The translations under genes were made by a program, and so were the position numbers. The notes under the pieces were generated by a model. That model was not told the origin of the DNA. It saw only the letters and a list, made by a program, of their open reading frames with translations, and searched no databases. Positions 345-16,763 of a stretch of DNA of 22,618 nucleotides are shown here, piece after piece. This DNA comes from a virus. The stretch's first letter is position 1. Each line of letters opens with the position of its first letter. The DNA lies in IMG/VR virus record IMGVR_UViG_3300023174_000673, positions 1 to 22,618 of that record; one strand, written 5' to 3'.

Positions 345-625
345 ATGTCTTTTGCTGATTTAAAGAAGCAATCAAAGATGGGTTCCTTGACTGAGAAACT
401 CATTAAACAAGTTGAGAAACTCAACGAAACTGGTTCCAAGGATGATAATCGTTTTTGGAAACCTGCGATGGATAAAGGTGGAACTGGTTCTGCTGTAATC
501 CGTTTTCTTCCTGCTGCTGCTGGTTGCGAACTACCTTGGGCACAGGTTTGGTCTCACGCATTTCAAGGACCTGGTGGTTGGTTGATTGATAACTGCCTAA
601 CTACTAATAAAGGGCAATGTCCCGT
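345..625 (+). CDS. gp32: Single-stranded DNA binding protein gp32, exon 1 (join 345-625, 1809-1956, 3116-3592)
   Basis: T4-like gp32 coats single-stranded DNA during replication, recombination and repair, and recruits other replisome proteins. The three exons join in frame to 301 residues, the same length as T4 gp32 as I recall it. Exon 1 encodes residues 1-94: the basic N-terminal cooperativity segment (MSFADLKKQSK), the start of the OB fold (GSAVIRFLP) and most of the zinc subdomain. Zinc ligands are H71, C84, C92 and C95, spaced H-X12-C-X7-C-X2-C; T4 has a similar H-C-C-C set. Codon 94 (Val) is split: GT at 624-625 plus T at 1809. The Shine-Dalgarno-like CGGAGA at 333-338 selects the ATG at 345, not the one at 341. 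Without splicing, translation would stop at 632 after 95 residues, lacking C95. Confidence 0.93.
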
Positions 626-702
626 CAAATAACACAGGCGGCTTTATAAGGTAACTTATAACGAAAAACTCTGTTAATTGCTGGAAACCCTAAACGAAAA
701 TA

Positions 703-2104: not shown

Positions 2105-3025
2105 ATGACTGAAAAATTGTATTGCGATTTAGATAAAAAATACTATTCTAAAATGGGAATAGTTAGAATAATCAAAAAATTTGGAATAGATCCAAAAGAT
2201 TATTATGATGAACATTTTAAGTCAGATACCGAAGGCATTTGTCTTAATTGTGAAAAATCTACAAAATTTACAAAATTTTCATACTATAAATTTTGTAATT
2301 GCAAATGTTCATCTCAGTATAATAAAAATACTGAAAAATTATGGAAAAATTCTTCAGAGGATCAAAAGAAAACTTATATTAATAAGATGTTAAACTCTAG
2401 ATATTTAAATACTTCTAAAGAAGATATTGAAAAAAAGAGAGTAAATACTTTACTTAAAAATACTGGTTTTGGTTCTTATTCTGAATTTGTATCAAACCAT
2501 AAGAAGGAGTGGTACAAAACATTAACTGAAGATCAGCATAATGAACTATTTGATAGAATAACTAAATCAAGAAATCAATACAAATATCATATGTATACAC
2601 TAAATGGTATACAAGTTAGAACTCAGGGATATGAAAAATATGTTCTTGATATTCTAATTAAGTATTTTGATAATACAAAAATTGAAGTTGATAGTAAAAA
2701 ATCAATAAGATACAAGGATGAAAACGGAAAAATTAGACGTTATTATCCAGATATTATAATTGATAATTTATTATTTGAAGTAAAATCTCTTTATACTTTA
2801 AAACTTCATAAAAATAATGTATTGTTAAAAATGGAAGCATCCAAAAATGCTGGATACATACCATTTTTAGTTGTATGGGAACCTAAAGAATCTGAAATGT
2901 GTGAAAATAGTTTAATAGAGACAATCAGCAGCCAAGACCTATCACATAAGGTAAGGTTCAACGACTATCCGTTTATCGGAGTAGGTTATAAGCAAATGAT
3001 AACCGAAGTGCTCGGAATCCATTAA
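2105..3025 (+). CDS. Homing endonuclease of gp32 intron 2 (zinc motif plus PD-(D/E)XK nuclease)
   Basis: A 306-residue protein, paralogous to the intron 1 endonuclease and with the same domain order. It begins LYCDLDKKYYSK, matching FYCELNKKYYST in the partner. Zinc ligands C46-X2-C49 and C64-X3-C68 follow (C66 is an extra Cys). A basic helical linker leads to the conserved RTQGYE segment and the nuclease motif P215-D216 with E225-V226-K227-S228, same spacing as in the partner. A downstream K..ASKNAGY segment also suits this nuclease type. The ATG at 2105 is chosen because it aligns with the partner N-terminus and follows the late promoter. The last ~33 residues are read from the intron core (P4' through P3'), which explains their odd composition. 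Its expected target is the intronless gp32 junction near VFL-YKF. Cleavage activity is inferred, not visible. Confidence 0.82.
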   Translation: MTEKLYCDLDKKYYSKMGIVRIIKKFGIDPKDYYDEHFKSDTEGICLNCEKSTKFTKFSYYKFCNCKCSSQYNKNTEKLWKNSSEDQKKTYINKMLNSRYLNTSKEDIEKKRVNTLLKNTGFGSYSEFVSNHKKEWYKTLTEDQHNELFDRITKSRNQYKYHMYTLNGIQVRTQGYEKYVLDILIKYFDNTKIEVDSKKSIRYKDENGKIRRYYPDIIIDNLLFEVKSLYTLKLHKNNVLLKMEASKNAGYIPFLVVWEPKESEMCENSLIETISSQDLSHKVRFNDYPFIGVGYKQMITEVLGIH

Positions 3026-3115: not shown

Positions 3116-3592
3116 TATAAGTTTGGTAAGAAAGTTTTTGATAAGATTATGGCTGCGATGCAACCAGAGTTTGATGATGAAAAACCCATTAATGCTTTTG
3201 ATTTCTGGGAAGGTGCAAACTTCAAGTTGAAGCTTCGTAAGGTAGAAGGATACTGGAACTATGATAAGTCAGAGTTTTCTGAACCTGGTCCTCTCTTGAA
3301 TGATGATGATGCTCTTGAGGAAATCTATAAGTCCATTCACGATTTGAATGAATTTACAGATGAAAAGAACTTTAAATCTTATGAAGATTTGAAGAAGCGT
3401 TTGGGATATGTTCTTGGAAATAAGAGTGCGTCTAAGCGTCAAGATCAAGAAACACTTGATGAGGAAGAAGAGTTTGTGCCAACAACAAAGAGTGAATCTA
3501 CATTCACTTCGTCCTCAAAATCTAGTTCTTCTGTTGACGAAGATGAAGACGATGATACTCTTTCTTATTTTCAAAAGTTAGCTGAAAGTTGA
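3116..3592 (+). CDS. gp32: gp32, exon 3
   Basis: Encodes residues 144-301 in frame after exon 2, opening with YKFGKKVFDKIMAAMQPEF, the conserved end of the DNA-binding core, followed by INAFDFWEGANFKLK. The C-terminal ~45 residues are a Ser-rich linker plus a strongly acidic tail (VDEDEDDDTLSYFQKLAES), the domain by which gp32 contacts replication partners and controls its own DNA binding. A TTG upstream at 3092 is in frame but lies in intron sequence, so it is not the start. The gene ends 30 bases before a terminator hairpin. Confidence 0.93.
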   Translation, partial: YKFGKKVFDKIMAAMQPEFDDEKPINAFDFWEGANFKLKLRKVEGYWNYDKSEFSEPGPLLNDDDALEEIYKSIHDLNEFTDEKNFKSYEDLKKRLGYVLGNKSASKRQDQETLDEEEEFVPTTKSESTFTSSSKSSSSVDEDEDDDTLSYFQKLAES

Positions 3593-5832: not shown

Positions 5833-6348
5833 TTATGGTGCCGATTGGTTATCTGGATAATCCCAAACTCTGGATTTGAATACTGGTTGTCCTCGTTTAT
5901 CAACAAATCTTTCGGTTGGAAGTAAAGATACTTCTCTCCATTCACTTTCTGGGACCTTGAAAAAATGACTACCTACACCAGAAAAAAGATAACTATGTAA
6001 AGTTTTTCTTGGTGCATTCACATTTCCTGATTTATTTATGTACGAAGCAGCAACTCCCCCACGGTACTGTGGATTTAGATAATGAAGGTTAGAACCAAAG
6101 AATGATCCTTTTCTTGGATTGACTTCAATAATATATGTTAGTGGTTGTCTGTCCCAAAATTGATACTTTTGTGGATATTTTGCGGAGTACATAAAAAATA
6201 CTAAATCACCAGGAGTAATAAAGTGTGTATCAATTTCACTTATATCTTCATCTTGATAGTTTGATAACTCATTCATCAATCGATTTGTGTACCAATCAGT
6301 AGAACGATATTTTTTTCCTGCTTCTTTAAGTATTTTATCGGCAATCAT
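5833..6348 (-). CDS. Conserved-looking phage protein of unknown function between gp4 and gp48
   Basis: 171 residues; I cannot assign it. The N-terminal helix-rich part (MIADKILKEAGKKY...WYTNRLMNELSNYQ) precedes a beta-rich part with TPGDLVFFMYSAKYP, PLTYIIEVNPRKG and FFGSNLHYLNPQYRGG, ending near the middle with ArgLys-rich APRKTLHSYLF. The pattern 'GDLVFF..Y...PLTYIIEV...FFGSNLHYL' recalls a small beta-barrel family seen in other tailed phages, sometimes placed with head or tail completion proteins. In T4 the DNA end-protector gene 2 is next to gene 4, but I see no sequence support for calling this gp2. It overlaps the gp4 stop by ATGA (6345-6348) and abuts gp48, so a structural or assembly role is likely. 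Confidence 0.7.
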   Translation of the reverse strand: MIADKILKEAGKKYRSTDWYTNRLMNELSNYQDEDISEIDTHFITPGDLVFFMYSAKYPQKYQFWDRQPLTYIIEVNPRKGSFFGSNLHYLNPQYRGGVAASYINKSGNVNAPRKTLHSYLFSGVGSHFFKVPESEWREVSLLPTERFVDKRGQPVFKSRVWDYPDNQSAP

Positions 6349-6806
6349 ATCTGAATTCCCAAATCACGTTCAGTAAAAATACGGAATTCCCAGTTTCTAT
6401 CTTTGCAATATTCACGACAAGCTTCCCATTTTGCTTGATTTACTACCCAAGTTTTAACTGAATATGCCCAAGATTTTGTTCGTTTTGGTGGATTTGTGGG
6501 TGGTTCTTTTAGATCTTTTGCTGGTTTGATTTCTACGACTACTATTCTTATATTTGCATCTTTATCTTTATATTTAAGTTTCATATCTGGAAAATATCTA
6601 TGAACTTTATTATCTATTGGTGATACATAAGGAACCCAAAACTCTTCACTTTGATATGAGATGACATTTTCTGTTAAATCACAATATTGAAACATCTTTA
6701 ATTCATAAGAAGATCTATAAATAATATTTGTTGGATCTCCGTTATATTTCTGTGGATTTTTTGGTTTGAACTTTCCTTGTTTATAGTTTTTGCTCTGACC
6801 AGACAT
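6345..6806 (-). CDS. gp4: Head completion protein gp4 (nuclease-fold)
   Basis: 153 residues, close to T4 gp4 (150). gp4 acts at the portal end of filled heads before tail joining. Visible family features: KFKPKNPQKYNGDPTNIIYRSSYELKMF at the N-terminus, VPYVSPIDNKVHRYFPDMKL in the middle and VVVEIKPAK after it. The order E (in SSYELK), D (in FPDMKL) and E-X-K (VEIKP) resembles a TnsA/PD-(D/E)XK nuclease core, as proposed for this family. It is the first gene of the minus-strand operon, with a late-type promoter 22 bases upstream of its ATG (6829-6836 minus). Its stop overlaps the next start. Confidence 0.88.
   Translation of the reverse strand: MSGQSKNYKQGKFKPKNPQKYNGDPTNIIYRSSYELKMFQYCDLTENVISYQSEEFWVPYVSPIDNKVHRYFPDMKLKYKDKDANIRIVVVEIKPAKDLKEPPTNPPKRTKSWAYSVKTWVVNQAKWEACREYCKDRNWEFRIFTERDLGIQI
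6716..6723 (+). promoter_or_regulatory. Possible late promoter for the plus-strand tail operon
   Basis: TATAAATA, an exact late core match on the plus strand, 115 bases before the gene at 6839 but inside gp4 coding (antisense). The short divergent gap (6807-6838) shows no plus-strand match, so this could drive the tail operon. The distance is unlike the 12-24 bases seen elsewhere, so chance is a real alternative. Confidence 0.3.
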
Positions 6807-6838: not shown

Positions 6839-7588
6839 ATGTCTCCAGCTCCTAATAGGGGAAAGCCAAATATAGGACCTTTATATGTTAGGATGACTAC
6901 TCCATCTCCAGGAGGAGTGCTTCCTGGAGCAAGAGATATATTTGGAAAACTTTCAGTTACGAGTCAATTTAAAGTATCTCTTCAGCTTAATAATGCAGAT
7001 AGAGAACTGATGGGTTGGTTGAGAACATGTGAATTGACTAATGATGTGAGAGTTGCAAATACATTTGATTTCTTTTGTTCCGAAACTGCACTTCCTGGTG
7101 CAACATTTGATATGGCAGAAGAAAGTGGAAGTCGTCAAGGAATTATAGAAAGATTTCCAACAAGAAGAATATATCCAGATTTTACAATGACTTTCTATGT
7201 TGATTATGATTATAAATTGATTCGTTTATTTGAAGAATGGATGAATTATATTAATCCAATTTATGATTCATCGGGAATAGTTCCTCCAGATGCAAGAGGA
7301 CAAGGAAATGCAAAAGATAGTCCAAACTTTTTTAGATTTAAGTATCCCGATAGTTATAAAAGAATTATTTCGGTTACTAAGTTTGAAAGAGATTTTTTAG
7401 AAAATCCAAATAAAAAAGGTGGAATAACTTTATCTCCTCCTTCATTGACTTATAGGATGATTGATTCATTTCCTACAAATATTACTGCAATTCCAGTTAC
7501 TTATGAAGGAAGTACGATTACAAAAACAACAGTATCTTTTAATTACACAAGATATGTGATTGAAAAACATAATGGGTCCAGGACATAA
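6839..7588 (+). CDS. Tail-tube-fold baseplate protein (gp54/tube initiator-like)
   Basis: 249 residues, with a pattern typical of phage tail tube and tube-initiator proteins: FDFFCSETALPGATFDMAE, IIERFPTRRIYPDFTMTFYV, LIRLFEEWMNYI with NPIYD, and near the end FPTNITAIPVTYEGSTITKT followed by VSFNYTRYVI. The LPG (position ~84) and 'DFTMTFYVD' strand are the repeated signature of this fold. In T4 the equivalent step is gp54, which with gp48 templates tube assembly on the baseplate. I cannot exclude a different tube-like hub component. First gene of the plus-strand operon, divergent from gp4. Confidence 0.62.
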   Translation: MSPAPNRGKPNIGPLYVRMTTPSPGGVLPGARDIFGKLSVTSQFKVSLQLNNADRELMGWLRTCELTNDVRVANTFDFFCSETALPGATFDMAEESGSRQGIIERFPTRRIYPDFTMTFYVDYDYKLIRLFEEWMNYINPIYDSSGIVPPDARGQGNAKDSPNFFRFKYPDSYKRIISVTKFERDFLENPNKKGGITLSPPSLTYRMIDSFPTNITAIPVTYEGSTITKTTVSFNYTRYVIEKHNGSRT

Positions 7589-7594
7589 TAAATA
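7587..7594 (+). promoter_or_regulatory. Late promoter before gp26
   Basis: AATAAATA overlaps the end of the preceding gene and lies 21 bases before the gp26 ATG at 7616. It fits the NATAAATA form and the spacing of the window's other late motifs. Confidence 0.6.
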
Positions 7595-7615
7595 ACATTA
7601 CTGTAATTGTATAAC

Positions 7616-8344
7616 ATGACTTTACCAAAAATACCTACACCGACTTTTGAGTTGGAATTGCCATCAACAGGAAAAACAATTAAATATCGTCCTTTTTTGG
7701 TCAAAGAGGAAAAGATATTACTTCTTGCACTTGAAAGTCAAGAAACAAAACAGATTACAAATGCAATTAAACAAGTAATAAAAGATTGTATTTTAACTAG
7801 GTCCATTAAAGTAGAAGAACTACCTACCTTTGATATTGAATATATTTTCTTGAATGTTCGTGGAAAATCAGTTGGGGAAAGTGTAGACTTAATTATTGCT
7901 TGTAGTGATGATGGTGAAACTCAAGTTCCGGTAACGATTTATATTGACGAGATAAAAGTCCAAAAAGATGAAACTCATACAACTGATATTCGTCTTGATG
8001 ATAATTTAACTTTGAGAATGAAATATCCTTCACTTGATCAATTTATTAAGTCTAATTTTAATTTTAGTGAAGAAAAAACAATTTCAAATATTGATGAATC
8101 TTTTGATATTATTGCATCTTGTATTGATATGGTTTTTACACAAGAAGATAGTTGGGCTGCAGCAGATTGTACAAAGAAAGAACTAAAGGATTGGATTGAA
8201 ACGATGGACACAAAACAATTTAAAATGATTGAGAATTTCTTTGAGACTATGCCAAAACTTGCTCATACTATTAAAGTTATAAATCCAAAAACTGAGGTTG
8301 AAAATGAAGTAACGTTGGAGGGATTAACAAGTTTTTTCGGCTGA
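7616..8344 (+). CDS. gp26: Baseplate hub assembly protein gp26 (tail assembly chaperone-like)
   Basis: 242 residues against 208 in T4. gp26 is needed for hub assembly but is not clearly a virion component, like a chaperone. Family-type features are the N-terminal LPKIPTPTFELELPSTGK and IKYRPFLVKEEKILLLALES, then central QVIKDCI and IEYIFLNVRGKSVGE, and the C-terminal DWIETMDTKQFKMIENFFET. I use the ATG at 7616 because the TTG at 7607 lies too close to the late promoter. The final codons (SerPhePheGly-stop) lie in the slippery run T-TTT-TTC (8332-8338), from which a -1 shift enters the next ORF without a stop; see the frameshift feature. Expected product pair: short gp26 and an extended form of about 303 residues. 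Confidence 0.83.
   Translation: MTLPKIPTPTFELELPSTGKTIKYRPFLVKEEKILLLALESQETKQITNAIKQVIKDCILTRSIKVEELPTFDIEYIFLNVRGKSVGESVDLIIACSDDGETQVPVTIYIDEIKVQKDETHTTDIRLDDNLTLRMKYPSLDQFIKSNFNFSEEKTISNIDESFDIIASCIDMVFTQEDSWAAADCTKKELKDWIETMDTKQFKMIENFFETMPKLAHTIKVINPKTEVENEVTLEGLTSFFG
8318..8338 (+). promoter_or_regulatory. Candidate programmed -1 ribosomal frameshift site
   Basis: T-TTT-TTC (8332-8338) is a classic X-XXY-YYZ slippery heptamer in the gp26 frame, two codons before its stop (8342-8344). The -1 frame then reads CGG CTG ATT ATG and runs straight into the ORF at 8347-8523. GGAGGG (8318-8323) lies eight bases upstream, the kind of internal Shine-Dalgarno that stimulates -1 shifting in bacterial dnaX. 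No strong downstream hairpin is evident; ATATG/CATAT around 8356-8375 is weak. Confidence 0.68.
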
Positions 8345-8346
8345 TT

Positions 8347-8523
8347 ATGGCTCATATGGAATTGGAGTCATATTTTAGACTTAATTTTGCACTTTTGCAA
8401 TTTCATAAATGGCATTTGAGTGAAGTAGAAAATTTGATGCCCTGGGAAAGGGATATATATGTCGCATTATTACAACAGCATATAGAAGAAGAAAATCTAA
8501 AACAACAACAAAATGGCTCTTAA
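8347..8523 (+). CDS. Short tail assembly chaperone extension downstream of gp26
   Basis: 58 codons from the ATG at 8347, three bases after the gp26 stop, and overlapping the next gene start by 11 bases. The protein (MAHMELESYFRLN...FHKWHLSEVENLMPWERD..) carries the pattern H-W-X-L-S-E-(V/I)-X-X-L-X-P-W-E-R with a Glu-rich end (IEEENLKQ), like the second component of tail assembly chaperone pairs (lambda G/GT type) in many tailed phages. It sits where T4-like phages have gene 51. It may be made as a separate product by reinitiation, as a gp26 fusion by -1 frameshift, or both. No Shine-Dalgarno lies at proper spacing before 8347, which favours coupling or frameshifting. Confidence 0.7.
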   Translation: MAHMELESYFRLNFALLQFHKWHLSEVENLMPWERDIYVALLQQHIEEENLKQQQNGS

Positions 8524-10333
8524 ATCTGTTTTATCTCCGGAAAAAATAACAGGGAAATCTAATAAGGGTGTTTTGTCTGCTCGAAAATTTATTTCTGGTG
8601 GTTCTTCTTTAGGTGGTTCTGTATTTGGTAATGCGGCAAATAAGATTGTTAATTTTCAGAGATCTGGAGTTCAACCATCTCCAGTTGATGTTGGTAGTAT
8701 TATAAAAACTATATCTGCAGGAGTAGTCAATAATTATAACAATCAAGCACAAAGTATTAATAATTCAGTCACTAATATAATCAGTAAAAGTGTAAGTAAT
8801 TTATCAAAAGATTATCAGGATAGAATTAAAAAAGTAGATGAAGCAAAACCAACTGGAGTTCTTCAAAAGATTTTAGGTCTTTATAAAGACGTAATTGGTT
8901 TTATACAATTCTTTGGAAAAAGAAAATTTGTAGATGGATTAAGAGATAACTTAAAGGCACTTCAAAAATCATTTACTGATAGTTTTGAAGTTGCAAAACT
9001 TATTCGTCAGGCAATTATTAAAATTGTAAAACAACTATCCAATCTTCCAAAAGCATCACCATCTGGAGGTGGAGGAATAAATCTTGATGTTGATATTCCT
9101 GGTGGTGGATTGAAGAAATCTGCCCCAAGAGGTCTTGGAAGAATGATGAGAAGAGTTGGTGGTAAGGGTAGAATGCTTGCTCTTGGTGCTGGTGCTCTTG
9201 GATTGGGTGCTGCTGGTGGTGCAGCAGTAAATGCTCTTTCAGGAAGTGATGCAATACAACCTGGTGGTGCTGCTCCTGAAATACCTGGAAATATAGTTGA
9301 TAGTTTAAGTAGTATTATTGATAGATTTGCACGAGCAATTGATAGTTTAGTCAAAGGTGGTTCTGGTAAGACTTCAGGATCTTCTTCTGGTAGCAGTAGT
9401 GGAAGTGCAGCAAAACCAGCGGAAAAGGGTGCTCCTGGTGATACTTCTGGTGCTCCTGGTGCTCCTGATAATAATATTCAAGCTTCTCCTGGGGGAGCAA
9501 AAACAGCAGAAGAACTGGCATTAATACAAACAGTAATGCAACGAGAAGGTGCGGATTATACAACTGTTTATGGTGGAAAAAAAGTTCCACAATTAACAGA
9601 AATGACATTGGGGGAATTGTACCAAGCATCAAAATTAGGAGGAACAGATCGACTTCCTTCCAGGTTAGGTGGTGGAGTTATTCCTTATGCAAAAGATCAA
9701 TATAATTCTAGTGCTACTGGTGCCCCACAACTAATGCCAGATACTCTTAAAGGATTACTTAACTCTGGAAAATTCAAAGAAAATCAAAAATTTACTAAAG
9801 AAGTACAAAATGAAATAATTCTTCAACTTGCGAGACAGAAAAATGTAGATCCGACAAAAAAATTAACTGAGAGTGATATGTCGAAGCTTGGCGGCACATG
9901 GGCCAGTTTTACTCCCCAATACGGACAGTCTAAAAATACAGCTTCATCTACACTTAATGTGTATCAAAAAAATCTAGAAAGAATTAAAAAAGAAGGATTT
10001 GTACCACAAGCAGCACCACAAGTACAAGCAGCACCACAAGTACAAGCACAAGCAGCACCACAAGTACAAGCACAAGCAGCACCAGGAACACAAGCACAAG
10101 TAGCACAAAGAGTATCAACTGTCTCTCAACCAGCACAAACACAACCACAAGTAAATTATCTTCCTATTAATATGGGTGGAGGACAGCAGCCGCAACAATC
10201 AGGAGGCGGCGGTCTTTCGGTCCCATCACCAGTACAGCAATCTGGACCTACAGTACCATCTCTTTCTGCTACAAATCCAGATAATTTCTTGGTTCTTTAT
10301 TCAAGAATGGTTTATAATATTGTGGACGGATAA
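8513..10333 (+). CDS. Large tail protein with lambda R-like lytic transglycosylase domain (tape measure candidate)
   Basis: 606 residues. The N-terminal ~180 are helical and polar (VVNNYNNQAQSINNS, DYQDRIKKVDEA), followed by a Gly/Ala hydrophobic segment (about 222-242) and a Ser/Gly/Pro-rich linker. Residues ~333-485 resemble lambda endolysin R (GH104 transglycosylase): E345 in VMQREGADYTTVYGGK matches the catalytic Glu segment SEGTD..; SATGAPQLMPDTL (400-412) matches STGAGRYQLL; TWASFTPQYGQSK (462-474) matches IWASLPGAGYGQ. So it probably opens peptidoglycan on injection. A Gln-Ala-Pro repeat linker (about 498-530) follows. Size, helical N-terminus, hydrophobic segment and place before gp27 also suit a tape measure protein (T4 gp29 is 590), but that is inference. 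The ATG overlaps the previous ORF. Confidence 0.7.
   Translation: MALKSVLSPEKITGKSNKGVLSARKFISGGSSLGGSVFGNAANKIVNFQRSGVQPSPVDVGSIIKTISAGVVNNYNNQAQSINNSVTNIISKSVSNLSKDYQDRIKKVDEAKPTGVLQKILGLYKDVIGFIQFFGKRKFVDGLRDNLKALQKSFTDSFEVAKLIRQAIIKIVKQLSNLPKASPSGGGGINLDVDIPGGGLKKSAPRGLGRMMRRVGGKGRMLALGAGALGLGAAGGAAVNALSGSDAIQPGGAAPEIPGNIVDSLSSIIDRFARAIDSLVKGGSGKTSGSSSGSSSGSAAKPAEKGAPGDTSGAPGAPDNNIQASPGGAKTAEELALIQTVMQREGADYTTVYGGKKVPQLTEMTLGELYQASKLGGTDRLPSRLGGGVIPYAKDQYNSSATGAPQLMPDTLKGLLNSGKFKENQKFTKEVQNEIILQLARQKNVDPTKKLTESDMSKLGGTWASFTPQYGQSKNTASSTLNVYQKNLERIKKEGFVPQAAPQVQAAPQVQAQAAPQVQAQAAPGTQAQVAQRVSTVSQPAQTQPQVNYLPINMGGGQQPQQSGGGGLSVPSPVQQSGPTVPSLSATNPDNFLVLYSRMVYNIVDG
10006..10105 (+). repeat. 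In-frame Gln-Ala-Pro tandem repeat
   Basis: Imperfect copies of CAAGCAGCACCACAAGTA, giving PQVQAAPQVQAQAAPQV and variants. Encodes a low-complexity, probably flexible linker behind the transglycosylase domain. Codons are nearly identical between copies, so recent expansion is likely. Confidence 0.8.
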
Positions 10334-12393
10334 TGGCTAAACTTCTTTCTTCTCCAATTGTTTCTGCTTCAAATAATATTGTTCTTTTTGCGAAGGGAAC
10401 AAAAAATCTTCCCAAAGTGCAGAAGGGATTAGTTCAATTTAATCAGTTTTTACAAATCAAAACTGTTGAACTTGAAAGAACTAAACTTCCAGATAAGAAA
10501 AAAATTAAAGAACTTGCAAATCTGAATGTTGTATCTACGTTTGGTTCTGCTGGTGGATTGTTGGGTAGATTGGCAAGTGGTGCTCTTGATGTTGCTGGTT
10601 TCTTGGGAAATTTCTTTCCATCGAGAGGAAAACTTGGAAAACCAAAACCCGTAAAGGGAATAAAACCACCCAAACCAGTAGTTAGAGGACCGAAATTAAA
10701 ACTTGGCGGAATAAGAGCACTTGGTGTTGTAAATGCTTTATTTGCTGGAGTTGATTTTGCGACTGGACTTCAAGAAGGAGAAAGTGTAGGAAAAGCAGCA
10801 GCAGGTGCTGGTGGTTCTCTTGCTGGAAGTTTGCTTGGTGGAGCAATCGGTCAAGCATTAATTCCTATTCCTGGAGTTGGATTTGTTCTTGGTAGTATGG
10901 CTGGTGGATTTTTGGGTGGTTATGCTTCTGATAGAGTATATGAAGGCGGAAGTTTACTTAAAGAAAAACTAACCGGAAGATTAAAAAAACAACAAGAAAA
11001 ACAAAAAGTACTTACAGGAGATAAAAATAGTTTTTCCGATGTAATTAGTAAGTTTAGTGGTGCTGTGAGTAAATTTGAAAGAGGAGTTGCTTCTGGTTTA
11101 TTTGGTTCTGTTTCTAATGCTGGTATGGGTTCCTCTCAAGAAGGTACGACAGAATATGGAGAATATGGAAATCGTAATGAAATTCCAAGTCAAACTCCAG
11201 GAGAAATGCAAGATTTAAATGCAACTGGAGGTACTACTCCAAGTTCTAATCCAATTACAGGAAAATATGGAGAACAAAGAAGCGGACATATACATGCTGG
11301 AGTGGATTATGCTCCACCAGCAGGAACACCAATTAGTGTAATACAACCGGGAAGTGTTTCAAGTGCAGAGTTTAGAGACAATGGATATGGAAATCAAGTT
11401 AAAGTAGATCATCCAGGTGGAGTGAGTAGTTTTTATGCACATTTGAGTTCAATTTCAGTTAAAGTTGGGCAACAAGTATCCCCAGGAACTGTCATCGGAA
11501 AGGTTGGCAGCACAGGACATTCTACAGGACCACATTTGCATTTTGAGGTTGATGTGAATGGAAAAAGAACAAATCCAACATCATACGCCGATAAACTTTT
11601 TAGATTTGGTGGAAATGTGAAAGTTGCACCAAAAGCATCACCACAATCTTCAATGGTTCCTGGTAGTCAAGGAATAAAACAAGGAAAGGAAAATGTAGTA
11701 ATTGGTGATAGTATTGCAAAGGGTCAAATGGATGCGACTGGAAAAAAAGGAAAGGCAGTTGTTGGTGCTTCTCCAGATAAAGTGATGGGTTATATTAATG
11801 AAATGAATCAAAATGGAAGAATAAAAGGAAATACGGTTGAGTTGTCTTCTGGACTTGCAAATAATGTAAAAGATATTGGAAATGTTCAAAAGCAACTTGA
11901 ATCATTGAAGTCTATGGGTGCTGCTTCTGTTTTGTTATCAGGAACTGCTAAATCTGGAAATAGAAAAGACCAAATACAAGCAAATAATGAACTTGCTGCA
12001 TTAGCAGCAAAATATCCTGGATTTGTAAAGTTTGGTGGTGGATTTACTCCAGGAGCAGATAATGTACATCCTGCTGATGCTGCGGCATATAATAAGCAAT
12101 TAACTGCTATGCAAGCAATAGTACAACCAGCACCACAAGCACAGGTTGTTCCTGCTGCTGCTCCATCAGTACCTCAAGTACAAACTTATCCAACATACAA
12201 TCAACCACAATCAAGTGTAACTGTAATGCCTATAATGATGAGAAGTCAGGGTGGTGGAGGACAACAAAAACCAATGATTATTCCTGGTGGCGGAGGAGGT
12301 GGAGGAACTGTCATTCTTCCTGGTCCGAGTGAAGGTGAATTGGTAAATAGTCTTATGAAAACTATATTACTTACTAATCTTTCGGCAACCTAA
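10333..12393 (+). CDS. Large tail protein with M23 peptidase and SGNH hydrolase domains
   Basis: 686 residues. N-terminal ~270: helical segment, then KPxKxxKPPKPVVRGPKLK linker, then long Gly/Ala hydrophobic stretches (about 155-205, e.g. GSLAGSLLGGAIGQALIPIP), like tape measure membrane segments. Residues ~312-425 are an M23 (LytM-type) metallopeptidase: H321-X3-D325, H370 (FYAHLSS) and H401-X-H403, the full zinc and catalytic set. Residues ~450-600 fit an SGNH hydrolase: G458-D459-S460 (nucleophile), GLANN (507-511), and D576-X2-H579. So one polypeptide could cut peptide cross-links and remove acyl groups from wall or surface glycans. The tail end is Gln/Pro and Gly rich. The ATG overlaps the previous stop (TAATG). 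It may be a second tape measure-like or hub-associated protein. Confidence 0.75.
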   Translation: MAKLLSSPIVSASNNIVLFAKGTKNLPKVQKGLVQFNQFLQIKTVELERTKLPDKKKIKELANLNVVSTFGSAGGLLGRLASGALDVAGFLGNFFPSRGKLGKPKPVKGIKPPKPVVRGPKLKLGGIRALGVVNALFAGVDFATGLQEGESVGKAAAGAGGSLAGSLLGGAIGQALIPIPGVGFVLGSMAGGFLGGYASDRVYEGGSLLKEKLTGRLKKQQEKQKVLTGDKNSFSDVISKFSGAVSKFERGVASGLFGSVSNAGMGSSQEGTTEYGEYGNRNEIPSQTPGEMQDLNATGGTTPSSNPITGKYGEQRSGHIHAGVDYAPPAGTPISVIQPGSVSSAEFRDNGYGNQVKVDHPGGVSSFYAHLSSISVKVGQQVSPGTVIGKVGSTGHSTGPHLHFEVDVNGKRTNPTSYADKLFRFGGNVKVAPKASPQSSMVPGSQGIKQGKENVVIGDSIAKGQMDATGKKGKAVVGASPDKVMGYINEMNQNGRIKGNTVELSSGLANNVKDIGNVQKQLESLKSMGAASVLLSGTAKSGNRKDQIQANNELAALAAKYPGFVKFGGGFTPGADNVHPADAAAYNKQLTAMQAIVQPAPQAQVVPAAAPSVPQVQTYPTYNQPQSSVTVMPIMMRSQGGGGQQKPMIIPGGGGGGGTVILPGPSEGELVNSLMKTILLTNLSAT

Positions 12394-13709
12394 TGTCTAT
12401 ATCAGTCGGCGCATTTAGACCAAATTATTTTGGTATACAATCATTGGATGGAAAAAATAAAGTTGATGTGACTAATTCATTGTTATCATTTGATTATTTT
12501 GAGGATTTATTGTCTCCTTGTATAACCGCAATTGTACAAATTGTAAATTCATCTTCATTGTTTAATATTCTTCCAATTCGTGGTGGCGAAAAGGTTGCGA
12601 TTAGTATTGATACTGCTTTTGGTGAGTTTTTGCTTGATGGTGATGATGCATTATATGTGACGAAAGTGAATGGATTGGACGCACAAACTACAAATGAAAA
12701 TTTTACATTACATATGGTTTCTAGGGAAGGTCTTGCAAATGAAACAGTAAGATGTGAAAAAAAATATAATAGTGCAACAATTGATGTTCATGTAAAAAGT
12801 ATACTAAAAGATACATTAAAAACAAAAAAATTTAATAGTCAAAATATAGAAATAACATCAAATAATTATTCTTTTATTGGAAATAATAAAAAACCATTTC
12901 ATATTTTAACTTGGTTGGGACCAAAATCAGTTCCGGCAACATCAAGTAGAAGTGGAACTTCTGGTGAAGGTGAATATGCGAACGCAAAAGGAACTGCTGG
13001 ATATTTATTTTATGAAAATAAAGATGGATTTAATTTTAGAAGTATTGATAGTTTAGTTGCAAATACCCAAATACAAAATCAAAGTGCAAATAAAGAAAAA
13101 ATAATAACTTACATCTATACTCAAGTTATAGAAAACAATACACAATCTAATGAACTTAAAATATTAAATTATGAATTTGAAAAAAATATAGATTTGATGA
13201 AATCGTTAAGAGTTGGAATGTATTCAAATAAAAGTTATTTTTATGATCTGTATTCAAATAGTTTGGATATTTACAAATATACGTTAAAGGAAGAAATTGG
13301 AAATAAGTTAGGAAACAAAGATATTGCGGTTTCTGATGAATTTGGTGATAGTATTAGTCGTATTATGGTTCGTGTTTCTGATAGAGGTGCTTTAAATAGT
13401 AATGGTACTGTTTCCGATAAAGAAAGAAGTGGTGCTGATATGGCTAAATCTTATTCTAGATATAATATTCTATTTACTCAAGCACTAAATATGGTTGTGC
13501 CTTGTAATGTATCATTAAAAGTTGGAAGCATTATTAATGTAATATTTCCAAAAATAGACACAAAGGAAAACAAAGAATCTGATGATGAGCAGAGTGGTAA
13601 TTATTTAATTAAAGGTTTGAGGCATCATTTTGAAGGAGGGCAAATGGTTACTAGTCTGAGACTAATACGTGATAGTTATGGACTTTATGGACCCAATAAT
13701 ATTTTCTAA
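12393..13709 (+). CDS. gp27: Baseplate hub protein gp27-like
   Basis: 438 residues (T4 gp27: 391). gp27 trimer forms the central hub ring that carries gp5 and continues the tail tube channel. The N-terminal ~230 residues show tube-like beta-strand patterning: LSFDYFEDLLSPCITAIVQI, LPIRGGEKVAISIDTAFGEF and NFTLHMVSREGLANETVR. The middle has KKPFHILTWLGPKS and GYLFYENKDGFNFRSIDSL, a signature I associate with gp27-type hub proteins across myophages. The C-terminus (KVGSIINVIFPKID..SGNYLIKGLRHHFEGGQMVTSLRL) matches the hub-protein end. It follows the hydrolase protein with TAATG overlap, and precedes gp5 with only a small CP12-like gene between. Confidence 0.8.
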   Translation: MSISVGAFRPNYFGIQSLDGKNKVDVTNSLLSFDYFEDLLSPCITAIVQIVNSSSLFNILPIRGGEKVAISIDTAFGEFLLDGDDALYVTKVNGLDAQTTNENFTLHMVSREGLANETVRCEKKYNSATIDVHVKSILKDTLKTKKFNSQNIEITSNNYSFIGNNKKPFHILTWLGPKSVPATSSRSGTSGEGEYANAKGTAGYLFYENKDGFNFRSIDSLVANTQIQNQSANKEKIITYIYTQVIENNTQSNELKILNYEFEKNIDLMKSLRVGMYSNKSYFYDLYSNSLDIYKYTLKEEIGNKLGNKDIAVSDEFGDSISRIMVRVSDRGALNSNGTVSDKERSGADMAKSYSRYNILFTQALNMVVPCNVSLKVGSIINVIFPKIDTKENKESDDEQSGNYLIKGLRHHFEGGQMVTSLRLIRDSYGLYGPNNIF

Positions 13710-13714
13710 AAACT

Positions 13715-13921
13715 ATGGAATTAAAAGAACTTATTGATGAAATTTGCGAAGAAGTGCATTATTCGCAAAATGAACAAAGAAAAAGATATCTGGAAAGTTA
13801 TCTTCAGGAACTTTTATCTTATCAAAAAAATAATCCAAATGAAGATAAAGTTCCGACTCCGTTGCAATTATATTGCAACGACCACCCAGAAGCATTAGAG
13901 TGTAGATTATACGATGATTGA
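13715..13921 (+). CDS. CP12-like small protein
   Basis: 68 residues. The C-terminal part TPLQLYCNDHPEALECRLYDD (from residue 48) is the CP12 signature: C54-X8-C63 followed by R-(x)-Y-(D/E)-D. CP12 in cyanobacteria binds GAPDH with this C-terminal loop and PRK with an N-terminal Cys pair, shutting down the Calvin cycle; cyanophages carry cp12 as a metabolic gene. Here the N-terminal half (charged helix with C11 only) lacks the second N-terminal Cys and the AWDxVEEL core is degenerate (YLESYLQEL). It could therefore bind GAPDH only. It is inserted between gp27 (5 bases upstream) and gp5 (8-base overlap at 13914). The alternative is a structural small protein with a chance-similar end, but the match is close. 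Confidence 0.72.
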   Translation: MELKELIDEICEEVHYSQNEQRKRYLESYLQELLSYQKNNPNEDKVPTPLQLYCNDHPEALECRLYDD

Positions 13922-16763
13922 AGAAAGTTTATTAAAATCCAATTATATTGGAAAAGATGGTTTTACTTGGTGGATTGGTCAAGTGGCACATTCTTCCGTT
14001 TGGGCAGAAAAATCAGAAATGTCTTTAGAAGGTACTAAAGATGGAGTATGGGGAGCAAGATGTAAAGTTAGAATAGTTGGATATCATTCCTTTGATGGAA
14101 ATATTCTTTCTGATGATGATTTGCCTTGGGCACAAGTAATGCTAGACCCTTCCTTTGGAAGTGCTCAAGGTGGTATTGGAGGAACATTGCATCTAAGAGG
14201 CGGTGAAACTTGTTTTGGATTTTTCTTGGATGGGGATGATGGACAACAACCAGTAATTATTGGATTACTTTACCGTAGTGATGGAACAAAAAACTTACAG
14301 ACAGAAGATGTCGTAACAAAAGAAAAAAGTTCAAAGTTCAAACCTTTTACTGGACATCCTGGAAATCTAATTAAACCATCACAAAAAGATAGCAGAGCGT
14401 CAAAATCTTTTACAGAAGCAGAGACATCACCATTATCTCAAGCATCTGCAACAAATATTGCCTTTAAGTCTGATTTTGGATTTAGCAGTACATCAACAAC
14501 CAATAGTGCAACAATACAACAGTTTGGTGATAAAATTGCAGGAATTAAATCTGGTATTCCTGCTGCATCTACTCTTTCGGTAGAAAAAAAGGCAGATATT
14601 ACTTTAGTTAGACCAAATGGATGTGAAAATAATTTAATCGGACAGATTACACAAGCAATACAAGACTTTATTGCAGTTACAAATGGACTTGATAGATATT
14701 TGCATATTTATATTGATCCAATCTTAAATGAAGTTGTAAATGTTGGAAATTTAGTAAAAAAAACGGCAAGTCAAGTTCTTGGAATTGTAAAATTAATTAT
14801 TAATAATTTAAGAGGTACAATTTTTAAATGTATTGCTTCATTATTTCGTAAGTTAGTTGGATTGGTAGTTCCACCACCACAACAAACAATTGTTTTGGAA
14901 GCAATGAAGAAAATTTTGGATACAATATTTTGTATTCTTGAAAAACTTCCTGCTAGCCTTCTTAATTTTATTGAAAATATGCTTAGTGATTTGATTGCTC
15001 CAATAAATGCACCTGCTTGTGCTATAGAGCAATTAACTGCTGGTATTCTTTCTGAATTGATGAATGCTATTGAAGATACACTTGCAGATATTATGTCTGG
15101 AATTAGTTGGTTGACTAATGGATTGAGTTCAATTACTGGAATTCTAAATCAAGCAAGTTCATTAGCATCACAAATTTTAAGTTTTCTTGAATGTACTGGA
15201 CTTGCTTGTAAGACTCCAAGTGTTTGGGCTGCTAAATTTGGACCAAATGAAAAGGAAGCAGACGATTGGCAAAAAATGGTCTCTAATGTGAATATATTAA
15301 ATGGATTAAGTAAAGATTTGGGTTCTATTGAAGCAGCAATTGGAGAAACACCAATTTATGGTGGAATTAATGGAAGACTCAATTCTTTGTTTAATACTTG
15401 CAATCAAAAAGTAACAAATCCAACAAATCAAAATGATATAATACCATTACCCCCTGGAGTTAGATATCCAAGTTGTATTCCTCCAATTGTAAGAATTGTT
15501 GGTAGTGATGGAATTGGTGCTAATGCAGTTCCGATTGTTGGTGCAAATGGTTCAATTTTTTCAGTAGAAGTAACTAGTGGTGGATATGGATATAACACAA
15601 AACCAACAGTTGTAATTGTGGATAATAGTGGATATGGAACTGGAGCAACGGCAGAGGCAGTCATTGAGAACCAAAAAGTAACTTCGATCTATGTAACGAA
15701 TTATGGTTCTGGGTATTGTGCCGGAAATTATACTGGTATTGGATCTACATCTCCTTCTTCTGGTATTGGATCTACAACTCCTTCTTCTGGTATTGGATCA
15801 ACATCTACTTCTTCAGTCAAACCATCTATAGTTTTAAAATTAACTTCTTCTAAGAAGAATATTATAGAAGGAGATAAATTTGATGTAATTCTTAATACAG
15901 AAAATGTAAATGATGGTACAAAATTTGATTATACGATTACTGGCATTCAAAGAAATGAAATTGATAAAGATTTAAAAGGATCTTTTGTGATTAATAACCG
16001 AACTTCTATCTTATCAATTCAAACAAAAAATAATCTTCTATATGATAAAGAACTTTTTACTTTAAAACTGAATGATTACAATAAATCTATTGACGTTTTA
16101 TTTAATAAAAAACAAGTTACAAATAAAGATACACAGTATATTTTAACTACTTCTTCTGATTTTATTACAGAAGGGGAAAGTTTTGTGATTAAATTGCAAA
16201 CTAAAAATATACCAGACAATACATTAGTTTCTTATTCTATTTCTGGAGTTAATTCAAAAGTATTAAATAATTCCCCTCTAGTCGGTTCATTTCAAGTTAT
16301 ACAAGGAAAAGCAGAGATTTCGATTAAAACAATTAAAGGTGTGATAGATAAAAATTCTATATTTAGATTAATACTTGATAATAAGAAAGCATCAGTTAGT
16401 GTATTAATAAAGGCGATAACAAAATCTACTCCACCACTAGGAATTAGAACTGATGTGAGTGGTTGTATTGAGAAGATAATAGTAATATCTCCTGGATATG
16501 GTTATACGACTGGAGATAGAATTACTGATGGAAAAAATACATATACTCCAATTGTTTCTCCTGGTGGTGGTGCAATTGTAAATATATTACCACTTAATAG
16601 TCCAATTTGTGGTTTTACGGAACCTCCAGATCTCACTATAAATACAAGAACAGGTGTTAGTGCTCAAGTTATTCCACTTATGAAATATTATCCTTCATAC
16701 GATACAATAGAACAACAAAAACTAACATCAATAGGAAGTACTTCGGTTATTGATTGTATATGA
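13914..16763 (+). CDS. gp5: gp5-like baseplate hub protein with OB domain and beta-repeat C-terminus
   Basis: 949 residues (T4 gp5: 575). The N-terminal ~125 residues are an OB-type domain as in T4 gp5: ARCKVRIVGYHSF, DLPWAQVMLDP, LRGGETCFGFFLDGDDGQQP and VIIGLLYR. T4 gp5 has a lysozyme next; here I see none. Instead there is a helical, hydrophobic middle (about 240-440) with several Cys. A Gly-Tyr repeat domain follows (~540-605, SGGYGYNTKPTVVIVD, NYGSGYC), then three GIGSTxPSS repeats (608-634), two beta-sandwich repeats (~636-737 and 739-840, each with an I(I/T)EG(D/E)xF strand, Calx-beta-like), and a second Gly-Tyr domain (SPGYGYTTGD, ~855). Wall cutting is apparently delegated to the two hydrolase proteins upstream. 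Overlaps the next start as ATGA. Confidence 0.78.
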   Translation: MIEESLLKSNYIGKDGFTWWIGQVAHSSVWAEKSEMSLEGTKDGVWGARCKVRIVGYHSFDGNILSDDDLPWAQVMLDPSFGSAQGGIGGTLHLRGGETCFGFFLDGDDGQQPVIIGLLYRSDGTKNLQTEDVVTKEKSSKFKPFTGHPGNLIKPSQKDSRASKSFTEAETSPLSQASATNIAFKSDFGFSSTSTTNSATIQQFGDKIAGIKSGIPAASTLSVEKKADITLVRPNGCENNLIGQITQAIQDFIAVTNGLDRYLHIYIDPILNEVVNVGNLVKKTASQVLGIVKLIINNLRGTIFKCIASLFRKLVGLVVPPPQQTIVLEAMKKILDTIFCILEKLPASLLNFIENMLSDLIAPINAPACAIEQLTAGILSELMNAIEDTLADIMSGISWLTNGLSSITGILNQASSLASQILSFLECTGLACKTPSVWAAKFGPNEKEADDWQKMVSNVNILNGLSKDLGSIEAAIGETPIYGGINGRLNSLFNTCNQKVTNPTNQNDIIPLPPGVRYPSCIPPIVRIVGSDGIGANAVPIVGANGSIFSVEVTSGGYGYNTKPTVVIVDNSGYGTGATAEAVIENQKVTSIYVTNYGSGYCAGNYTGIGSTSPSSGIGSTTPSSGIGSTSTSSVKPSIVLKLTSSKKNIIEGDKFDVILNTENVNDGTKFDYTITGIQRNEIDKDLKGSFVINNRTSILSIQTKNNLLYDKELFTLKLNDYNKSIDVLFNKKQVTNKDTQYILTTSSDFITEGESFVIKLQTKNIPDNTLVSYSISGVNSKVLNNSPLVGSFQVIQGKAEISIKTIKGVIDKNSIFRLILDNKKASVSVLIKAITKSTPPLGIRTDVSGCIEKIIVISPGYGYTTGDRITDGKNTYTPIVSPGGGAIVNILPLNSPICGFTEPPDLTINTRTGVSAQVIPLMKYYPSYDTIEQQKLTSIGSTSVIDCI
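15735..15815 (+). repeat. Three 27-base tandem repeats in the gp5-like gene
   Basis: Three in-frame units starting GGTATTGGATC at 15735, 15762 and 15789, encoding GIGSTSPSS, GIGSTTPSS and GIGSTSTSS. The first two differ by one base. They form a short linker before the beta-sandwich repeats. Confidence 0.9.

Follow-up and report, generated by a model that had tools for sequence, protein, structure and literature searches.

Background

CP12 has been described as an inhibitor of the Calvin cycle that cyanophages use (PMC3037559, PMC3906501, PMC9406205 and PMC5082946, in the parts of these papers available to us). Its gene, cp12, is often cited for the arrest of host carbon fixation by these phages. 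According to the available portion of PMC3037559 (2010), cp12 is present in 15 of 16 cyanophages, S-PM2 being the only one named there as lacking CP12, and its location varies among phages, with the psbA region at one extreme and 'near gp5', a site printed as a hot spot, at the other. Besides that paper, none joining cyanophage, cp12 and gp5 was found in the literature searched. Cyanophage CP12 without the N-terminal motifs has already been described (PMC3906501, accessible part), and CP12 proteins devoid of the N-terminal Cys pair can still form the ternary complex in some cases (PMC9406205, accessible part). As for timing, the part of PMC5082946 at hand presents the cp12 of phage P-HM2 as a highly expressed middle gene.

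Here, we analyzed a cp12 gene located in the window, that is, the whole stretch of 22,618 nucleotides forming positions 1 to 22,618 of the IMG/VR virus record IMGVR_UViG_3300023174_000673. The S-SSM7 gene SSSM7_015 (T4-GC 337) lies in the same gp27-cp12-gp5 order, and its product shares with the window protein a C-terminal Cys-Pro-Cys hook as well as the lack of the N-terminal Cys pair and of the AWD_VEE core. The two proteins are 31% identical: S-SSM7 CP12 has a 5-residue insert right before DHHDP that is missing from the window protein, the residue after the second Cys is Leu in S-SSM7 and Arg in the window, and an N-terminal cysteine, C11, further distinguishes the window protein. Canonical CP12 of cyanobacteria and plants (N/C class) possesses both the N-terminal Cys pair and the AWD_VEE core, which the window protein does not; the last 21 residues of the latter align without gaps to the 3zdf CP12 chain and to the end of 6gfo. 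In P-HM2, cp12 belongs to T4-GC 337 like that of S-SSM7 and is 74.7% identical to the S-SSM7 hub copy, but it adjoins talC at 177 kb of the record, whereas the hub genes lie at 9-18 kb. Finally, a CP12-type hook is shared by the C-terminal extension of plant GAPDH-B (weak match to 2pkq, E 0.26), described in the accessible part of PMC9406205; there the hook is fused to GAPDH, whereas the window CP12 is a free protein. Many related cyanophages likewise have cp12 in the tail operon, which makes it a shared habit and not an oddity.

A cyanophage cp12 gene in the hub cassette

The features on which the analysis relies are as follows, with their evidence in brackets.

7588..7594, + strand: T4-late-promoter-like ATAAATA, 12 nt before the gp26-like gene, which has a TTG start (position test before gene starts)
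7607..8344, + strand: gp26-like baseplate hub protein, whose gene would open the hub transcription unit (phrog_150, E 7.7e-80)
8347..8523, + strand: gp51-like baseplate hub assembly catalyst (phrog_634, E 6.8e-25)
8513-10333: ORF between the gp51-like and M23 genes
10333..12393, + strand: M23-peptidase-domain protein of the hub unit (PF01551, E 8e-31)
12393..13709, + strand: gp27-like tail protein, 438 aa, upstream neighbour (phrog_350, E 1.2e-99)
13715..13921 including the stop codon, + strand: cp12, 68-aa CP12-domain protein (ORF; PF02672; alignment with phage CP12)
13721..13831, + strand: hairpin predicted at the N-terminus, formed by helices 3-16 and 20-39 (AlphaFold2)
13874..13918, + strand: GAPDH-type C-terminal hook, C54 to D68, CNDHPEALECRLYDD (ORF; hub-copy survey; CP12 chains 3zdf, 6gfo and 3b1j)
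13914..13921, + strand: overlap of the cp12 end and gp5 start, 8 nt (ORFs; identical 8-nt overlap in many relatives)
13914..16763, + strand: gp5-like protein of 949 aa encoded downstream of cp12, 'baseplate hub subunit and tail lysozyme' (phrog_1922, E 3.4e-126)

The name gp27 is taken over from the preliminary description of this DNA, the PHROG label for phrog_350 being just 'tail protein'.

The cp12 ORF extends from an ATG to a TGA codon at exactly 13715-13921 (+), as the preliminary description had it when reporting a CP12-like ORF with an overlapping start. It begins after a 5-nt gap following the gp27-like stop at 13709, and the gp5 ATG at 13914 falls within its final Asp-Asp-stop codons, giving an overlap of 8 nt. 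The profile search proposed in that description bore out the family assignment: the Pfam CP12 profile, PF02672, matches residues 8-67 with E 1.7e-9 and 38.7 bits against a curated cut-off of 22.7 (E 1.4e-10 and 36.8 bits in the record search). Using phmmer against PDB sequences, seven distinct sequences were retrieved to E 1, all of them CP12 or CP12-domain chains, with 3zdf (E 1.1e-4) and 6gfo (E 1.4e-4) at the top; the 6gfo sequence is also present in 6ghl, a complex of GAPDH with full-length CP12. A profile of phage CP12 aligned to 6gfo over its full length (E 7.6e-9), the AWD_VEE part of 6gfo being placed on phage helix-2 residues. The reading frame of cp12 is preserved in relatives. Judged from its sequence, the window gene encodes an ordinary, if diverged, cyanophage CP12.

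The gp27-gp5 slot across isolates and environmental loci

In the annotation of 14 isolates, cp12 follows a gp27-like gene in 10 (S-SSM7, S-WAM2, S-RIM8, S-RSM4, P-SSM4, Syn9, S-SM1, DSL-LC02, DSL-LC03 and S-CREM1), although in Syn9, S-RIM8 and S-RSM4 the gene is unnamed and was recognised by sequence. gp5 is the very next gene in S-SSM7, S-WAM2, S-RSM4 and the lake isolates DSL-LC02 and DSL-LC03 (in DSL-LC03 the gp5-like gene is named pre-baseplate central spike protein), while cpeT, tRNAs or other small genes lie between cp12 and gp5 in S-RIM8, P-SSM4, Syn9, S-SM1 and S-CREM1. cp12 resides elsewhere in the genome in S-SRM01, S-TIM5 and P-HM2, and gp27 abuts gp5 in P-SSM2 and likewise in P-HM2. 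The preliminary description had considered the location striking and had proposed a synteny check; the five isolates in which gp27, cp12 and gp5 directly follow one another show it to be ordinary, and it is common in cyanophages, in keeping with the printed 'near gp5' of PMC3037559 (part available to us).

A wider survey used two gp27 alignments and yielded at least 159 IMG/VR loci, from the best 80 per scan. A simple sequence test left 123 distinct loci, of which 13 were dropped for having <1 kb downstream, so that 110 were usable. Among the matches listed, cp12 lies directly after gp27 with gp5 next in 79 of the 110, a frequency that is biased because most of the gp27 seeds were taken from phages with cp12 and only the best 80 per scan entered. 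The remaining 31 loci, again among the matches listed, have no cp12 and carry gp5 directly after gp27, the gp5 profile match beginning between 9 nt before and 10 nt after the gp27 stop. Among these listed matches, none of the 110 loci has a third gene directly after gp27, only cp12 or gp5, and cp12 occurs at no other place in the stretches retrieved.

Packing is tight in the occupied slots. In 77 of 85 hub copies, gp27 and cp12 overlap or lie 0-20 nt apart, so that a promoter would hardly fit between them, and cp12 overlaps gp5 in 64 of the 83 hub copies with a called gp5 start (both among the matches listed); the 8-nt overlap is typical of the subfamily to which the window belongs.

Presence and absence of cp12 follow the gp27 phylogeny. 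In a gp27 tree with 132 rows, the cp12 label requires 9 changes versus 34.6 with shuffled labels, and 0 of 500 shuffles were as low. A single clade that includes P-SSM2 takes in most empty-slot rows (29 empty, 3 unknown); within a large cp12 clade, L141 stands alone as a loss of cp12. The tree has long branches for P-HM2, S-WAM2 and Syn9, and its support values are of the quick kind only. The records of the 31 empty-slot loci (among the matches listed) are mostly short fragments; two contain a CP12 match elsewhere and two others psbA-type genes, so at least some of them are cyanophages. In 12 hub-cp12 contigs picked mainly for size (61-258 kb), exactly one CP12 match was found in each, indicating that the hub copy is the only copy found, and 9 of the 12 carry psbA-type genes. 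When 80 loci were collected through CP12 itself, 61 had gp27 within 400 nt upstream and 16 had cp12 elsewhere; the other 3 are cut upstream yet have gp5 downstream, directly in L072 and L092 and via cpeT in L090. A cyanophage-type cp12 was also present on L095 (WTIV01000171.1), the sole contig from the genome-contig scan; it is labelled as a Euryarchaeota MAG and is perhaps a binning contaminant.

Divergence of cp12 within its slot

The divergences of gp27 and gp5 are correlated with r 0.846 (81 sequences), whereas that of cp12 is related to those of gp27 and gp5 with r 0.25 and 0.38. As a control, 100 blocks of 70 columns per neighbour were drawn, which never fell under 0.68 and 0.61. This exchange test relies on distances and not on trees, and dropping the variants with a long N-terminal part (described below) left the result unchanged.

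At the gp27-cp12 border (window 13668-13743), DNA identity to the window passes from ~70-80% to nearly 100% in L003, L004 and L005. In these loci, cp12 is 97.5-99.5% identical to that of the window, gp27 ~73% and the main matched gp5 stretch 90-92%; on these identities, the border is a recombination joint. On the low cp12 correlations and the sharp joint, the gene is swapped in place: the slot is conserved, and the gene within it is exchanged more readily than its neighbours, which seems to be new.

The hook and the N-terminal half

The hook of the window protein consists of C54, P58, E62 and C63 followed by RLYDD, that is, C54-X3-P-X4-C63-RLYDD; it contains the CxxxPxxxxC feature of the CP12 family C terminus (Cys pair, central Pro), and the claim of an intact C-terminal GAPDH signature was thus confirmed. 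Of the 85 hub copies of the survey, 83 are complete (among the matches listed, as are all counts on hub copies in this paragraph). C-X3-P-X4-C-X2-[YHF] plus one or two residues ends all 83, the residue following the second Cys being R in 36, L in 28 and K in 19. The N-terminal Cys pair is present in 0 of the 83 and AWD in 0 of the 83. Any cysteine in the N part is found in 18 copies; the window protein has a single one, C11, which is typical of its own subfamily, the N-terminus of which is of the type MEL[QK]..I..ICEE.....N.QRKRYL..YL.ELL.YQK. Columns of the C part (47-68) have a mean entropy of 1.07, versus 1.68 for those of the N part.

Over the whole length, the window CP12 is 31-44% identical to six other phage or contig CP12 proteins (alignment A1), with I7, R24, L30, L33 and Y36 as invariant N-part positions. 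Six loci (L145, L146, L149, L150, L153 and L160) have an unrelated-looking N part in the same gp27-gp5 slot together with the same CP12 hook, truncated in L145 where the contig ends; in the two of these that were tested, PF02672 covers only the part from the middle onward or the C-terminal part. The persistence of the hook in such variants and the difference in entropy point to the hook as the main target of selection in the slot, although the contrast in dN between close pairs is small (N part 0.157 versus C part/hook 0.125). The dN/dS ratio of cp12 is ~0.12 (median 0.125; of 243 close pairs, 156 were usable, and these are not independent of one another), so cp12 is selected as a protein, under purifying selection.

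According to the preliminary description, the PRK-binding N-terminal half is not intact. This holds for the canonical motifs, which are absent, but the half aligns over its full length with other phage CP12 and is predicted to form a confident two-helix hairpin. The AlphaFold2 model has a mean pLDDT of 92.8 and a pTM of 0.76, with a C-terminal helix at 49-56; in the last block of residues the pLDDT is 73. Because the hairpin is modelled with confidence, the N-terminal half would be retained as a fold despite the loss of the PRK-side motifs. PRK binding by phage CP12 may thus persist, since some CP12 proteins without the N-terminal pair form the ternary complex. In a Foldseek search with the model, no row had an E value better than 0.001, the top row being the CP12-GAPDH entry 6ghl_F (E 0.076). 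VIA-align rows, mostly to an RNA polymerase helical hairpin (Z up to 5.6), were set aside as a common arrangement.

Other features of the window

The gene for gp32, the ssDNA-binding protein, is in three pieces (window 345-626, 1813-1956 and 3116-3586), covering positions 1-96 and 144-317 of phrog_224, with the middle piece recovered by tblastn. It is split by two inserts of ~1.2 kb, each with a DUF7487 (PF24308) ORF (734-1678 and 2105-3025). Because the pieces, when placed on the Syn9 protein, meet to within one residue or so, we infer that the inserts are two introns with homing-type genes; Rfam gave no intron match at these inserts. ATAAATA late-promoter-like sites at 704-710 and 2074-2080 precede both DUF7487 ORF starts by 23-24 nt. 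These sites resemble the late promoters of T4 intron genes. On the opposite strand, the ORF at 6345-6806 (-) encodes a TnsA-like endonuclease N-terminal domain (PF08722, E 4.7e-23) and, by its position, may be a gp4-like head-closure gene.

Promoters and timing

ATAAATA occurs within 60 nt upstream of 5 of the 22 listed genes, one of these sites being that at 7588 before gp26, versus a mean of 0.88 in dinucleotide shuffles of the same upstream stretches, of which 0 in 1000 reached 5. Over the whole window the motif is no commoner than chance (12 versus 13.2 expected), and whole-window counts of CTAAATA (2 versus 6.8 expected) and TATAAATA (4 versus 3.7) were uninformative; a sigma-70-like scan was set aside as well (48 versus 45.1 by shuffling). 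One CTAAATA site lies inside gp27 at 13485, such sites being fewer than chance overall. In the position test before gene starts in this window, no other upstream ATAAATA was found on the + strand between 7588 and cp12. Because the site at 7588 is the nearest one upstream, a late unit starting at gp26 most likely includes cp12. Late expression with the structural genes, as the preliminary description had proposed, is therefore probable from the position of this late-like motif. Late expression from the hub would differ from what is reported for P-HM2, where cp12 is by talC and is a middle gene, and this contrast seems new.

S-RSM4, which has the tight gp27-cp12-gp5 order and also carries talC, gnd and zwf, bears on this question. 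It is reported to halt host CO2 fixation ~2 h after infection, sooner than S-PM2, which is without cp12 (PMC10452541 and PMC10665884, in the parts available). If hub cp12 is strictly late, such a stop at ~2 h calls for an internal promoter, another early factor or a particle-borne protein.

A probable GAPDH-binding inhibitor and its alternatives

We think it probable that the window gene encodes a GAPDH-binding Calvin-cycle inhibitor, made late with the hub genes, and not a structural part. Family, intact hook, purifying selection, conserved slot and in-place exchange are the observations it builds on. By analogy with characterized CP12, the C-terminal disulphide loop and acidic tail would bind the Calvin-cycle GAPDH of the host at its coenzyme site, which would slow carbon fixation and spare NADPH that the phage can use to make nucleotides; the helical hairpin of the N-terminal half would be kept without the canonical PRK-side motifs. 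The gene would be transcribed from the late-type site before gp26, within the hub unit, and its translation would perhaps be tied to that of gp5 through the 8-nt overlap.

The location between two hub/tail genes, the tight packing and the conserved slot would also suit a product that has become a building block of the baseplate hub or a factor in its assembly, a conversion that the preliminary description had envisaged and that we hold to be very unlikely. Indeed, gp5 comes directly after gp27 in P-SSM2, in P-HM2 and in 31 of the 110 loci (among the matches listed), and CP12 is not required between the two in T4-like cyanophages. The most conserved part of the protein is its hook, its divergence tracks that of gp27 and gp5 poorly (r 0.25 and 0.38), unlike that of a co-adapted hub part, and the P-HM2 copy beside talC remains 74.7% identical to the S-SSM7 hub copy. 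Moreover, the GenBank remark 'similar to Synechococcus phage S-SM1 protein' stands on T4-GC15 and gp5 but not on CP12; we infer that such remarks mark the S-SM1 virion proteins, which number 41 in the text of PMC3037559 (part available). CP12 made late could alternatively enter the particle together with gp27 and gp5, inside or on the hub, and be injected, blocking GAPDH at once in the next cell. This would reconcile a late operon with the early loss of CO2 fixation in S-RSM4, and the conserved gp27-cp12-gp5 slot would in that case serve to package a metabolic inhibitor for delivery. It is nonetheless highly improbable, as no report of CP12 in virions was found in the searched literature, in the portions of the papers at hand, and the relocated P-HM2 copy is expressed mid-infection (PMC5082946, in part).

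Could the main reason for keeping cp12 in this place be that its translation controls how much gp5 is made, via the overlapping stop and start? The overlap in 64 of 83 hub copies (among the matches listed), of 8 nt in the window subfamily, agrees with this, but where cp12 is missing gp27 itself lies at or over the gp5 start, genes or tRNAs part cp12 from gp5 in S-RIM8, P-SSM4, Syn9, S-SM1 and S-CREM1, and the conserved hook is left unexplained, which makes this explanation unlikely. Lastly, the gp27-gp5 joint might simply tolerate recombination, cp12 being a loosely kept passenger without function in this phage. The sharp gp27-cp12 joint (cp12 97.5-99.5% versus gp27 ~73% DNA identity) and the printed hot spot near gp5 (PMC3037559, available portion) are in line with this, but purifying selection, the hook in 83 of 83 copies and the occurrence of only cp12 or gp5 directly after gp27 in 110 loci (both among the matches listed) make a passenger quite unlikely.

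Conclusions

At this slot, lineages exchange a metabolic gene at a fixed position inside a structural cassette. If hub cp12 is strictly late, the CO2-fixation stop in S-RSM4 may not be the doing of cp12, or an internal promoter exists; and if cp12 is part of a late hub unit in many T4-like cyanophages, these may depart from the mid-infection picture, which comes from P-HM2 with its cp12 outside the hub.
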